From assembly GCA_009778135.1 (NCBI GenBank), contig WRKJ01000094.1:1-39424 (forward strand): a stretch of 39,424 bases of DNA. The letters run 5' to 3'. The notes under the pieces are model-generated. The model did no database searches. It worked only from the letters and a program-made list of their open reading frames with translations, and was not told the origin of the DNA. Shown here piece by piece: positions 10,561-14,332 of the stretch. Positions within the stretch are counted from its first letter, which is position 1; each line of letters begins with the position of its first letter. The stretch comes from Defluviitaleaceae bacterium (GTDB lineage: Bacteria; Bacillota_I; Bacilli_A; MOL361; Turicibacteraceae). The position numbers and the translations under genes were made by a program.

Positions 10561-11427
10561 TCAAGTCTCTTTTGCACTGTTGATTATTTCGTCATACCCC
10601 TGTTGATAATCTCTAGCTAAATTAACACTTCCAACTTTTTCAAAAATATCAATCACATCTTCCATTTTTTTCTTACCTTCATCAATTTTTCCTCGGTAAA
10701 AATCAATTGCACCTGATATATAAAGAAACATGGCTCTTTCGAAGATATCTGTTTCCGCCATCAAATGCTCAGTAGCTTGTCTAAATTTAATCGCATCATC
10801 CACCTCTTTTCGATCAACAAAAATAATCATGGTATTGAGCATAATGGTAATCATTAAGTTTTTGTTTCTTGGAATCTCCTTGTAAAATTTCGTAAATGAC
10901 AACATTGCTTCTGAGAGCTGCCTAATAACAGGACTGCCAAGGACTCTCATGGTGTTGTTATAAAGAAGGAGTTCATAATATGCCCAATCGTAAATGGAGA
11001 CAAGATAATCGGTGATTTTATCCTTTTCTTTTTGAGATAGTGTAAAACCTTTATCAATTTCGCTAATTAAAACTTTGATCATCAGACAATTTAATTCATG
11101 ATAAATATCTTCATTTTTGTTTTTAGCTGTTTCCTCTAAAAGCAGTTTCTTTAAAGCAATTTCGTTTCCAGATTGATAAAGATCAGAAACCTTATGTAGA
11201 ATGCGTTGAAAGCCACTGAATTCGTAATCATTGGCAATATGGATGAATTCTTCGAAAGTTACGCCTATTTTTTCAAGGATATGATAGAATCTCACGAGTT
11301 TTATATCTCTTTCCCCGTTTTCAAAGTCACTGAGTAGAGAAGGGCTTAGGATACCATTAGCCACCTTCCTTTGCGAGAAATTTCTATTTTCTCGAACCTT
11401 TTTAAAAATTTTTCCAAAATCATTCAT
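10561..11427 (-). CDS. Rgg/GadR/MutR-family transcriptional regulator
   Basis: 288 aa. Residues ~4-60 form a Cro-type helix-turn-helix of the Rgg kind (GKIFKKVRENRNFSQRKVAN, SPSLLSDFENGERDI, FYHILEKIGVTFEEF). The remainder is an all-helical TPR-like C-terminal domain that in this family binds short peptides or acts as a sensor. Rgg proteins commonly respond to small hydrophobic peptides encoded next door and re-imported by Opp. The start is the ATG at 11427 (GGTGGTG upstream); the frame extends further but without a better start. Copies of the same 23-bp element flank the gene on both sides and face outward, which points to local targets: the 18-aa ORF on one side and the 10378 unit/FtsX gene on the other. 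Confidence 0.85.
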   Translation of the reverse strand: MNDFGKIFKKVRENRNFSQRKVANGILSPSLLSDFENGERDIKLVRFYHILEKIGVTFEEFIHIANDYEFSGFQRILHKVSDLYQSGNEIALKKLLLEETAKNKNEDIYHELNCLMIKVLISEIDKGFTLSQKEKDKITDYLVSIYDWAYYELLLYNNTMRVLGSPVIRQLSEAMLSFTKFYKEIPRNKNLMITIMLNTMIIFVDRKEVDDAIKFRQATEHLMAETDIFERAMFLYISGAIDFYRGKIDEGKKKMEDVIDIFEKVGSVNLARDYQQGYDEIINSAKET

Positions 11428-11438
11428 AGCACACCACC

Positions 11439-11461
11439 AAATTCTAGATATCGAACACTTT
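11439..11461 (+). promoter_or_regulatory. Rgg-associated 23-bp element, upstream copy
   Basis: AAATTC-TAGATATC-GAACACTTT, ending 6 bp before the -35 of the divergent promoter. It lies 11 bp upstream of the rgg start, so one site could both activate the rightward transcript and feed back on rgg. Same sequence (20/23) and outward orientation as the copy at 10538-10560. Confidence 0.6.
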
Positions 11462-11467
11462 CGGTTT

Positions 11468-11497
11468 TTGCTATGCAATCTGTTACACTTGTATAAG
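11468..11497 (+). promoter_or_regulatory. Promoter divergent from rgg
   Basis: TTGCTA (11468-11473), an 18-bp spacer and TATAAG (11492-11497). Transcription would start near 11504 and end at the terminator 11701-11747, giving an RNA of about 240 nt. Confidence 0.6.
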
Positions 11498-11525: not shown

Positions 11526-11582
11526 ATGTCTTATTTTGATGCACTTATTCAAAGCCATATTAAGTTTATTTTCAAAATGTGA
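11526..11582 (+). CDS. 18-aa peptide ORF divergent from rgg; candidate Rgg pheromone
   Basis: The peptide is MSYFDALIQSHIKFIFKM: mixed N-terminal half, hydrophobic/basic C-terminal half (IKFIFKM). The ribosome binding site GGAGGAG at 11513-11519 is excellent, with a 6-nt gap to ATG. Promoter, the 23-bp element and a strong terminator complete a dedicated short gene of about 240 nt. Small peptide genes divergent from an rgg are the classical SHP and SIP arrangement in streptococci, and the C-terminal hydrophobic residues are usually the signal. This one lacks the typical SHP Gly-Gly or DIIIIVGG end, so it may be a new class, or the RNA rather than the peptide may matter. Downstream the RNA can also form a perfect 7-bp hairpin at 11656-11675. 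Confidence 0.5.
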   Translation: MSYFDALIQSHIKFIFKM

Positions 11583-11700
11583 TGATCTAAAAATTTTATC
11601 ACACCCCTTGGAATAAAGCAAGTGAACAGGAGATAAAAGTGTCATTTTTTACATGAGATGGTCGAAATACCATCTGAATTCAATGTACATCGTCATTATT

Positions 11701-11747
11701 AAGCCAAGCTTTCAGAGAATTTGATGAAAGCTTGGCTTCATTTTTTT
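11701..11747 (+). terminator. Strong intrinsic terminator of the short transcript divergent from rgg
   Basis: AAGCCAAGCTTTCA (11701-11714) pairs perfectly over 14 bp with TGAAAGCTTGGCTT (11725-11738), loop 10 nt, followed by CA and seven T. No conventional gene precedes it, so it marks the end of a real short transcript. Confidence 0.9.
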
Positions 11748-11876: not shown

Positions 11877-12077
11877 TTATTTTAAGTTATCAAAGAAACA
11901 TAAGCCGAGCTTGAAGTAGGTGATGCTTACTTCATCATAAAGTTTACAAGCAAAGGTATATAATTCTTCATTCTCAATCTCACCAAGGATACGGTTCCGA
12001 ATGTCTTTGTCAATGCCATAGTAAGCGATTCTCTCAATGAGTAGATCAGCCATCTGTTCTTTTGTTAAATCAATCAT
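11877..12077 (-). CDS. Small hypothetical protein (66 aa)
   Basis: The product begins MIDLTKEQMADLLIERIAYY and is mainly helical and charged with a more hydrophobic end (TYFKLGLCFFDNLK). No family is recognised. AGGGAGAA ends about 7 nt before the ATG, a good ribosome binding site. Two shorter frames precede it on the same strand: a 35-aa single-TM ORF (12124-12231) and a 15-aa ORF (12080-12127) whose ATG overlaps the stop of the first (ATGA) and whose stop is 2 nt before this gene. This suggests either a chain of coupled small genes or one older gene broken by frameshifts. Its place between the rgg cluster and the AgrD-like gene makes a signalling or immunity role possible, but that is a guess. 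Confidence 0.5.
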   Translation of the reverse strand: MIDLTKEQMADLLIERIAYYGIDKDIRNRILGEIENEELYTFACKLYDEVSITYFKLGLCFFDNLK

Positions 12078-12231: not shown

Positions 12232-12340
12232 AGAAATTTGTTTTATTTTGTCGTAATTTGTCGAATCAGAAAAAAAGGCAAAAAAGTTAATAAGAAAGGC
12301 AAAGAATCAAGTGAAACTCAAGATCAAAGATAAGCGTCTT

Positions 12341-12370
12341 TTGCATAAGAGATGAGATGCAGCGTATACT
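12341..12370 (+). promoter_or_regulatory. Promoter of the AgrD-like gene
   Basis: TTGCAT (12341-12346), 18-bp spacer, TATACT (12365-12370), about 22 bp before the GGGGG ribosome binding site. About 90 bp upstream TTTGTCG occurs twice at a 10-bp interval (near 12247-12263), which could be a regulator site on one face of the helix. Confidence 0.6.
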
Positions 12371-12398
12371 GAATAACGTTTTATATGGGGGTATAAAT

Positions 12399-12527
12399 AT
12401 GGTTAAAAAGAAAAGACTTATTTTGAAGATGGCATCAGTGCTCATCACATTTGCAATGACGGTTCCAACGAATGGTAGTCTTGCGGTCGTGGGCGAGCCT
12501 CAATTGCCGAGAAAGCTAAACAAATAA
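12399..12527 (+). CDS. AgrD-like cyclic autoinducer precursor peptide with Ser in the ring position
   Basis: 42 aa. A basic, amphipathic N-terminus (MVKKKRLILKMASVLITFAM) is followed by TNGSLAVVGEPQLPRKLNK. AgrD precursors have the same three parts: a membrane-binding helix, a short core whose Cys or Ser closes a ring on the last residue, and an acidic/Pro tail of the form (D/E)xPxxPxxL. By comparison with S. aureus AgrD-I (CDFIM before DEVEVPKEL), the core here would be SLAVV before GEPQLPRKL, so the ring would be a Ser lactone. TGGGGG lies 7 nt before ATG and a sigma-A promoter is upstream. It converges on the LytTR/7-TM operon, with a shared terminator. No AgrB processing protease is seen in the window. 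Confidence 0.65.
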   Translation: MVKKKRLILKMASVLITFAMTVPTNGSLAVVGEPQLPRKLNK

Positions 12528-12578
12528 AAAAGAAGACAGATGGAAATCATTGATTTATTCCAACATGTCTTCTTTTTT
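12526..12578. terminator. Bidirectional terminator between the AgrD-like gene and the 7-TM gene
   Basis: AAAAAAGAAGACA (12526-12538) pairs perfectly with TGTCTTCTTTTTT (12566-12578). The loop is 27 nt. The hairpin overlaps the last codons of the minus-strand membrane protein and starts at the AgrD-like stop codon. Confidence 0.7.
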
Positions 12579-13370
12579 GGTGGTATGCTTGTTCTGTTCA
12601 TCATTAAATAGAGGCAATTCTACATCAAACTCACGCATCGTTGTCTTAAAATGTGCTTTAAACACGTCAATATCTTCTTCATTTTCCATGTCAAGCCATA
12701 AACCAAGGAGGCGACTCTGTAACTTTTTGATGGAAATGATTGTAGTAACGCTTTTGTATAATTTAATAAAAGCCGGAATAAGGATAAAACTTGCTAATAC
12801 GAGACCAAGGGTTAGAAGTAGAAAATAAGAAAGACTGTATTCAAAGTTTAGGATTGCTGTTGGGATAAAAAATGCTAATGTTGTGAAACAGACAAGGAGT
12901 TTGAGTACAACATGGGTTTGAACGGCGTTAAACCATTTATACCAATGGAGCTTTTGACATAAAATGATAATCATAACTGTTGAAGTAAATTGTACGAGTA
13001 AAAAAAGAAGAGGTGTATAAATGTTAAATATTTGATCAGCTAACCAAATGCCACCAGCCAAGGGGAATTGGATGAAAAGCAGGATCAATAAGGATAGGAT
13101 ATAAATCATGATTAAGTCGCTTAAATGAGCACGTTTAATGATCGTTTTGGTCATGATTGATAAGAGTAGAAAACTTATAATCCTAAAAAGATGACCATCA
13201 AAATAGATGACAGGTGCTAATGCAATGACATAGATCAAACAAAGTAGCGTGTGAAACCATTCGACACGTATATATCGTTTCATCATAGCGTGAGAAATAA
13301 AATACATCATAACAAAGTCCATGAAGTTTAGAGCAAATTGTACGATCCACCAGGTTAAGCTTTCTGTCAT
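12555..13370 (-). CDS. 7-TM membrane protein resembling an AgrC/ComD sensor without the kinase domain
   Basis: 271 aa with about seven membrane segments over residues ~5-210 (first FALNFMDFVMMYFISHAMM, last LLTLGLVLASFILIPAF), then a ~60-residue cytoplasmic tail. Sensor kinases of the HPK10 group have the same kind of membrane half, but here the HisKA-like RHDYxN motif and the HATPase N, G1 and G2 boxes are absent and the protein ends cleanly at a terminator. It follows the LytTR gene by 16 nt, with AGGAG 10 nt before ATG 13370. Two readings: a kinase-less peptide sensor, or a membrane inhibitor of the LytTR partner as in HdrRM/BrsRM of S. mutans. A hidden frameshift is unlikely because the terminator lies immediately behind it. 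Confidence 0.6.
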   Translation of the reverse strand: MTESLTWWIVQFALNFMDFVMMYFISHAMMKRYIRVEWFHTLLCLIYVIALAPVIYFDGHLFRIISFLLLSIMTKTIIKRAHLSDLIMIYILSLLILLFIQFPLAGGIWLADQIFNIYTPLLFLLVQFTSTVMIIILCQKLHWYKWFNAVQTHVVLKLLVCFTTLAFFIPTAILNFEYSLSYFLLLTLGLVLASFILIPAFIKLYKSVTTIISIKKLQSRLLGLWLDMENEEDIDVFKAHFKTTMREFDVELPLFNDEQNKHTTKKEDMLE

Positions 13371-13386: not shown

Positions 13387-14163
13387 TTACATATTTTTCC
13401 GTAGTTCATGAAGCACTGCTTTTTTGTAACTTTCACTCATGGAAATTTCCATTGGATAGCCATTTGGCTCGGTATAAATCAATTCAATGCATTGAGCTTC
13501 ACGTGATTTATGAACATGTCTAATCATCATTTTGTTCACAGCATAATCCCGATGGCATCTCAGAAGGGTATTTGATTGGTTATGCTTCGTTAAAAAATGA
13601 GTGATGGACAGTGGAATTTCTATTTCTTTAGACAAGTTTCTGACAAAGTCATAAAGATGCAATGTGGTTTTACCTGCATGTCCGTGAACATAAGCGACTT
13701 CTTCCAAATAAAACCTAACCGTTTTTATATTCGTGTCGATATCAATGATTTGAAAACAAGGTCTTAAATTTAACGCAGCTTTACTAAAAAAACCTTTGAT
13801 ATTGGAGAAGAGTGTTTTCTTTGTTAGACATAAAATGGGATAGTATTTTTGGAAAAGGATGGCTTGATATTTGTGATCTTCGTGGTCCATCACGGTTATC
13901 ATGGTTTGATGTGGCGCTATTTTTTTTATGAGCTCGATTAAGTCTTCCCCATGTCCAGCTTCGTCTTCCCAGTCGAAATAAAAGCAAGAAATATCGATGT
14001 CTTCTCTTTCAATGGTTTTTCGTGTCTCTTTAAAGGTCGTTGTTGTGATGATGTGCGCATAAAGACCAAGTGACGCAAAAATAGTCGGGGCTTTGTCAGA
14101 AAGGTAGCGCAAAACATTTGGATCGCTATGTGCAATAAGGACGCGTATGATCACCTTTTTCAT
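13387..14163 (-). CDS. LytTR-family response-regulator-like protein with degenerate receiver
   Basis: 258 aa. The C-terminal ~110 residues are a LytTR DNA-binding domain (VRFYLEEVAYVHGHAGKTTL, HDLL-type core, LLRCHRDYAVNKMMIRHVHKS, ISMSESYKKAVLHEL), as in AgrA and ComE. The N-terminal ~120 residues have the receiver fold order, but the acidic pair is reduced to IAHSD; the phosphoacceptor Asp may persist in CFYFDWEDE and the Lys in LTKK. Phosphorylation is therefore uncertain. ATG 14163 is preferred over TTG 14169, given AGGA about 10 nt upstream. It is the first gene of a two-gene unit with the kinase-less 7-TM protein, so it may be controlled by protein contact rather than phosphotransfer. 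The AgrD-like gene is a plausible target. Confidence 0.75.
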   Translation of the reverse strand: MKKVIIRVLIAHSDPNVLRYLSDKAPTIFASLGLYAHIITTTTFKETRKTIEREDIDISCFYFDWEDEAGHGEDLIELIKKIAPHQTMITVMDHEDHKYQAILFQKYYPILCLTKKTLFSNIKGFFSKAALNLRPCFQIIDIDTNIKTVRFYLEEVAYVHGHAGKTTLHLYDFVRNLSKEIEIPLSITHFLTKHNQSNTLLRCHRDYAVNKMMIRHVHKSREAQCIELIYTEPNGYPMEISMSESYKKAVLHELRKNM

Positions 14164-14332
14164 TGTCAATCTTCCTAATTCTCTGTCTTCTGCCCCAAAG
14201 TCAGTATAAAAATCCTTTCAAATCAAATTATACCAGACTTTCCTTCATTCGACAATAACGTTTTGATGATTCACAATAAAAATTCGAGTAGGTAAGTCAT
14301 AAATTTAAAAATAAAGAAATTTTTCGAAAAAC

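Follow-up and report, generated by a model that had tools for sequence, protein, structure and literature searches.

An orphan AgrD-type precursor gene facing a kinase-less AgrC-like receptor in a gut bacterium related to Turicibacter

A 42-codon open reading frame (ORF) from a gut bacterium related to Turicibacter is, judged by its sequence and its relatives, a genuine gene encoding an AgrD-type pheromone precursor. It belongs to a dispersed gene family that is found in two species and faces AgrC-like receptor genes. At the locus described here, located in a window of 39,424 nucleotides (the whole stretch of DNA analyzed), the receptor gene has no kinase part and the adjoining LytTR regulator carries a degenerate receiver domain. 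The explanation we consider probable as a whole is an orphan AgrD, matured to a serine lactone by a distantly encoded AgrB and sensed by a kinase-free receptor-regulator pair. The interpretation given in the original prediction, an AgrD-like precursor with a serine-lactone ring, was supported overall. Neither the missing kinase of the receptor nor the multi-copy nature of the family had figured in that prediction. The features of the locus are as follows.

12270 to 12306, no strand assigned: candidate LytTR/AgrA operator, AAAAAAAGGCAAAAAA and TAAGAAAGGCAAAGAA, repeats 21 bp apart
12341 to 12370, forward strand: sigma-A type agrD promoter, TTGCAT-18-TATACT, weak -35 element, read by eye
12399 to 12527, forward strand: agrD-like pheromone precursor, 42 aa (ORF, eight relatives, leave-one-out profile)
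12525 to 12579, forward strand: hairpin terminator between the convergent genes (-19.7 kcal/mol, z -5.04)
12555 to 13370, reverse strand: AgrC-like receptor without kinase, seven transmembrane (TM) helices plus a cytoplasmic helix, 271 aa (homology, AlphaFold)
13387 to 14163, reverse strand: LytTR regulator with a degenerate receiver domain (LytTR Pfam match, alignment, structural model)
14227 to 14255, reverse strand: promoter of the regulator-receptor operon, TTGTCG-17-TATAAT with TG extension (promoter scan)

The precursor gene and its family

The ORF (MVKKKRLILKMASVLITFAMTVPTNGSLAVVGEPQLPRKLNK) extends from an ATG at 12399 to a TAA at 12525-12527 and is preceded by the ribosome-binding site (RBS) GGGGG at 12387-12391, 7 nt upstream of the start codon. 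Its product divides into a leader (residues 1-26), a predicted ring (S27-L-A-V-V31), and a tail (G32-EPQLP-RKLNK). A profile built from the eight relatives, the window copy being left out, recovered the ORF at E = 1.8e-12 from 1,128 six-frame fragments of the window, with the second-best fragment at E 1.9; a profile of the four copies of the second species alone recovered it from the same fragments at E 3.9e-6. The leave-one-out profile and the alignment of all nine copies thereby uphold the claim of a 42-aa AgrD-like precursor. Pfam and NCBIfam, including TIGR04223, gave no match to the window ORF, and a search of Rfam was likewise negative. Across the family, TIGR04223 matched two of the nine copies at E ≤ 10 (best E 2.4e-4), the copy on contig C93 exceeding the curated cut-off (19.7 vs 19 bits). 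The profile check proposed beforehand thus gave no match to the window copy but did match paralogues. We discarded an alternative start at 12357 (56 aa): this codon precedes the -10 element, and the relatives do not share the additional residues.

The family was found via a paralogue of the regulator, whose surroundings revealed the same arrangement both on contig C63 and in another genome of the genus; a profile of the three peptides then retrieved the remaining copies. At least five dispersed orphan agrD copies are present in the window genome (G000; contigs C94, which is the window, C63, C93, C13, and C102) and four in the second genome (G001; C8, C18, C25, and C16). The latter corresponds to the MAG deposited in GenBank as “Turicibacter sp. 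isolate Lab288P1bin27”, and the name Lab288 occurs in publications about MAGs from termite guts. Six other genomes of the taxonomic family contained no credible agrD copy, nor did the rest of 395 genomes sampled from the class, with one weak, chance-like match order- and class-wide.

In the nine-copy alignment, which contains the short leader, Cys/Ser ring residue and x-E-P-x-x-P tail of an AgrD, the motif G-E-P-x-x-P is invariant, Ser is aligned in eight copies, and no copy contains a Cys. The original prediction had staked itself on conservation of the serine and an EPxxPxxL tail in related strains, and this conservation of Ser and GEPxxP was found in both species. The exception is the C102 copy, having Thr in the ring-Ser column with Ser residues adjacent. 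Most other copies have one residue more than the window copy between Ser and GEP; in the C102 copy (NSHTASFAFGEPELP; L038 3292-3426, G000) this spacing is irregular, with four residues, or six if counted from Thr.

All nine agrD genes converge with an AgrC-like receptor gene, the stop codon of which lies within about 50 bp in eight copies and at 426 bp in C63. On C13 the contig end truncates the receptor gene, leaving its C-terminus readable. For the window, the predicted convergence of agrD on a LytTR/7-TM pair was confirmed, both genes being present on the reverse strand as listed above. An agrB adjoins none of the nine copies. The lack of a neighboring agrB, regarded as unusual in the original prediction, is instead the rule for orphan copies in this genus. 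It is also not a strict criterion for an AgrD, as Clo1313_2818 of Clostridium thermocellum likewise has no agrB at its locus (PMC5322536). Regarding other surroundings, the C13 copy (L037 754-4147, G000) directly follows a gene pair for an AAA ATPase and a subtilisin-like protease (named by eye), and the C102 copy comes after HNH-like and ATPase-like genes in G000; these could be defence or mobile neighborhoods.

Candidate processing enzyme and predicted product

The search for AgrB homologs that had been suggested revealed two AgrB genes over the Pfam cut-off, on contigs C99 and C77 and none on the window contig, so the genome does contain the AgrB-like proteases on which the prediction depended. 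Both proteins have an intact His/Cys pair. The C99 AgrB (98.8 bits; pair in the form G-x-H-x6-C) has no agrD nearby, its gene standing alone between ispE-like and veg-like genes (named by eye). Its ortholog in G001 (62% identity) has other neighbors, among them a UvrC-like gene, and again no agrD. Downstream of the C77 agrB lies a gene for a classical Cys-AgrD (ring CIGLL), next to an NRPS-type cluster (named by eye); in G001, the corresponding AgrB likewise comes with a Cys-AgrD of its own, plus AgrC-AgrA. A PDB sequence search with AgrB returned no match.

By elimination, the orphan C99 AgrB is the likely shared processor of the orphan AgrDs. In each genome, one AgrB lacks an AgrD and several AgrDs lack an AgrB, hence pairing them is the simplest reading. 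Two alternatives had originally been put forward, a distant AgrB and a different protease; the former is favored because the agrD-less AgrB is conserved in both species. As both assemblies are fragmented (97% and 75% complete), a further AgrB could be missing from them.

The motif types at the active site of the AgrB proteins were also considered. Those of the GGxH type mostly have Ser-AgrDs as partners (L042, L067, L084, L086), and those of the xFGxH type mostly adjoin Cys-AgrDs. The rule that a GGxH AgrB goes with a Ser-AgrD, which would have linked the orphan AgrB to the orphan precursors, was dropped as proof of pairing, however, as L091 and L109 have Cys partners. The classical Cys-AgrD/AgrB pairs (L057 254-987; L055 4839-7651) adjoin the NRPS-type cluster in G000 and peptide-export ABC genes in G001 (by eye), suggesting a control of secondary metabolites.

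Regarding the product of the window AgrD, the pentapeptide lactone S-L-A-V-V is the best prediction by analogy, because the Ser-to-Pro spacing is the same as in Clo1313_2818. This C. thermocellum precursor gives rise to a Ser25-Phe29 lactone ring, the cyclic form of which was confirmed by LC-MS/MS; leader cleavage is predicted before Ser25, Tyr30 begins the tail, and Pro35 is conserved (PMC5322536). With Ser27-Val31, Gly32, and Pro37, the window precursor has an identical spacing, the last tail Pro lying ten residues from the ring Ser in both, and the leader cut would likewise fall just upstream of Ser. Both are AgrD-type precursors outside an apparent agr operon with a Ser-lactone pentapeptide as product, predicted in case of the window. 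They differ in that no AgrB, AgrC or AgrA candidates were identified for Clo1313_2818 (PMC5322536), whereas in the window family the gene is multi-copy, a receptor gene faces each copy, and the genome encodes an orphan AgrB. Serine lactones as predicted for the window are also represented by the autoinducing peptide (AIP) of Staphylococcus intermedius/pseudintermedius and by GBAP of Enterococcus faecalis (PMC3673130). Unlike in the window, fsrD lies within fsrB in E. faecalis (PMC3673130), agrD lies inside the agr operon in staphylococci, and the receptors of staphylococcal AIP and E. faecalis GBAP are kinases.

Two other fates of the precursor were weighed against maturation by the C99 enzyme. 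The C77 AgrB, scoring above the Pfam cut-off with its His/Cys pair intact, might process the window precursor instead of, or together with, the C99 AgrB. We regard this as rather unlikely, given that its operon already supplies a Cys-AgrD, as is also the case in G001, and that processing by C77 would leave the orphan AgrB without a substrate. The peptide might also stay linear, being released by signal peptidase and a general protease, which would suit its Sec-signal-like N-terminus and the absence of an adjoining agrB from all nine copies. A linear peptide provides no evident reason for keeping the conserved GEPxxP tail and the ring Ser, though, and the orphan AgrB is conserved in two species. 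In addition, the analogous peptide of C. thermocellum is cyclic, with an inactive linear form (PMC5322536), making this fate highly improbable.

Receptor and regulator

The window receptor shares 32% identity with the sensor half of the C63 kinase (E 5.2e-36). It is shorter than its relatives (271 aa compared with about 385-420 aa), breaking off behind the first helices of the cytoplasmic part, and carries a Lys in place of their phosphoacceptor His. Pfam and NCBIfam showed neither a kinase nor a HATPase match. The AlphaFold model is all-helical with seven TM-length helices and without the ATPase domain; a PDB fold search with this model yielded chance matches only. Thus, the polytopic sensor of an AgrC kinase is present while the phosphoacceptor His and the GHKL ATPase domain are missing and, as far as alignment and model can tell, the protein is an AgrC sensor minus the kinase domain and phosphorylatable His. 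In the sensor tree it groups weakly with C63 on a branch of 1.39 vs 0.6 for C63. A further receptor, that of C25 in G001 (L040 2509-3669), has no His-bearing helix, has lost the GxGxG box and is without an adjoining regulator gene. It looks kinase-dead too, and degenerate receptors may recur in the orphan-agrD family.

The LytTR domain of the regulator was recognized by Pfam (PF04397, E 5.4e-7), whereas Response_reg gave no match to it, compared with 8.2e-14 for the C63 paralogue. In the alignment, H12-S13 stand in place of the metal-binding acid pair and strand 4 no longer ends in Thr/Ser, with D64 and K115 being retained. Compared with AgrA, the protein thus keeps the LytTR domain and not the full set of a phosphorylatable receiver (acid pair, Asp, Thr/Ser, Lys). 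Its structural model has a receiver-like fold with ComE as the closest solved structure (4cbv, E 3.8e-12) and also matches the LytTR domain of AgrA (4g4k/3bs1); a PDB search by sequence was without a match. Along about 530 codons the receptor and regulator frames are uninterrupted; they share 26-32% identity with the paralogue, and the coding frame is the best of six.

Promoters and candidate operator

The agrD promoter consists of a -35 element at 12341-12346 and a -10 element at 12365-12370, spaced by 18 bp; it does not appear in the list of a stricter consensus promoter scan of the window. Promoters with spacers of 17-18 bp are legible by eye upstream of all nine agrD copies. Originally, agrD was said to have its own promoter and terminator. 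The promoter, read by eye and with its weak -35 element, stands, whereas the terminator is not agrD's own: the right arm of the hairpin falls within the 3' end of the convergent receptor gene and the hairpin is therefore a structure of both genes.

The repeats upstream of this promoter match at 13 of 16 positions (p = 0.005 by shuffling), and 21 bp is the period of AgrA-type LytTR sites. Direct repeats at this distance also precede the promoter in G1C8 (0 of 200 shuffles) and, weaker, in G1C18 (p = 0.1). When the nine agrD promoters are pooled, an offset of 21 bp scores highest among 26 (68; shuffles: 95% 64, maximum 68). As repeats occur at the operator position in only three of nine promoters and the surrounding DNA is A-rich, they are suggestive of a putative operator of the regulator, not proof of one.

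Two further small ORFs were observed upstream of agrD. The first (11877-12077, reverse strand; 66 aa) has a good RBS and coding-like codon use, without matching any family; it is divergent from agrD, the candidate operator lying between the two, and is a possible target gene. The second (11526-11582, forward strand; 18 aa, MSYFDALIQSHIKFIFKM) is preceded by GGAGGAG, followed by an inverted repeat plus T run near 11700-11746, and divergent from a gene for an Rgg/GadR/MutR-type regulator (10561-11478, reverse strand; TIGR01716, 7e-47). Together they might form a second peptide-pheromone pair, 1 kb from agrD.

Proposed signaling by the receptor-regulator pair

With the kinase of the receptor and the acid pair of the regulator both gone, we infer a direct control of the regulator by the receptor without phosphorylation, making the pair a phosphorylation-independent peptide receptor akin to the LytTR regulatory systems. 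According to the favored model, the AgrD leader would place the precursor in the membrane, where an AgrB encoded elsewhere, most likely that of C99, would remove the GEPQLPRKLNK tail and close the Ser27-Val31 lactone. Cleavage of the leader would release the cyclic pentapeptide, either bare or still carrying a few leader residues. This lactone would be sensed by the convergently encoded 7-TM protein, which would control the regulator through direct binding and release, and the regulator might bind the 21-bp-spaced repeats upstream of agrD, resulting in agrD autoregulation.

The absent kinase and the lost His and acid pair could also be explained by decay, leaving a remnant of an AgrC-AgrA pair and a peptide that is perhaps made and acts only on other receptors. 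This is to be considered because no ortholog of the kinase-less pair showing conservation was found, the second species included, and the receptor branch is longer than that of its nearest paralogue. We give decay a modest chance at most: neither ORF is interrupted and their codon use is coding-like, the LytTR and TM parts can still be recognized, promoter, RBS, and terminator are in place, and the losses are confined to phosphotransfer while the sensor and DNA-binding parts remain. A pair still signaling by phosphorylation would depend on another kinase acting on Asp64; the retention of this residue and of Lys115 would permit this, and further GHKL kinases are encoded in the genome. Replacement of the acid pair by His-Ser and loss of the strand-4 Thr/Ser, on the other hand, normally abolish Mg2+-dependent phosphorylation, and we therefore hold this route to be quite improbable.

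The favored phosphorylation-free pair resembles the LytTR regulatory systems HdrRM and BrsRM, which combine a LytTR regulator with a kinase-less membrane partner in one operon (PMC6193735). Gene order and kinase absence in the window operon fit this class, in which the regulators are without a receiver domain (PMC6193735), unlike the window regulator with its modeled receiver-like domain. Moreover, these systems have no known AgrD-like peptide, and none of their membrane proteins is an AgrC sensor. With staphylococcal agr (agrBDCA), the window shares the AgrD layout, the AgrC-like polytopic sensor, the AgrA-like LytTR regulator and, as a candidate operator, the 21-bp-spaced repeats upstream of the precursor promoter. 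It differs in the missing agrB, in agrD being convergent to the regulator-receptor operon instead of part of one operon, in Ser replacing Cys, and in the lack of a kinase.

Novelty and significance

AgrD peptides are a known type; what appears new, on the level of sequence, is the orphan-AgrD network and the kinase-less receptor combined with a degenerate receiver. The literature searched, with most subscription journals lying outside of it, contained no paper describing either the network or the pair. A tentative extension, which we find conceivable without counting on it, is a hub-and-spoke arrangement: one orphan AgrB would mature at least five different Ser-lactone peptides encoded by scattered agrD genes, each having its own receptor, and at least one spoke would be a phosphorylation-free, peptide-gated pair of receptor and transcription factor.

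For orphan AgrDs such as that of C. thermocellum, receptor and maturase were previously unidentified. This genus offers nine of them, each with an adjoining candidate receptor, and one candidate maturase per genome, rendering their pairing directly testable. If the kinase-less pair works, it would represent the conversion of a two-component quorum sensor into a kinase-independent LytTR system, and thereby a possible origin of such systems.
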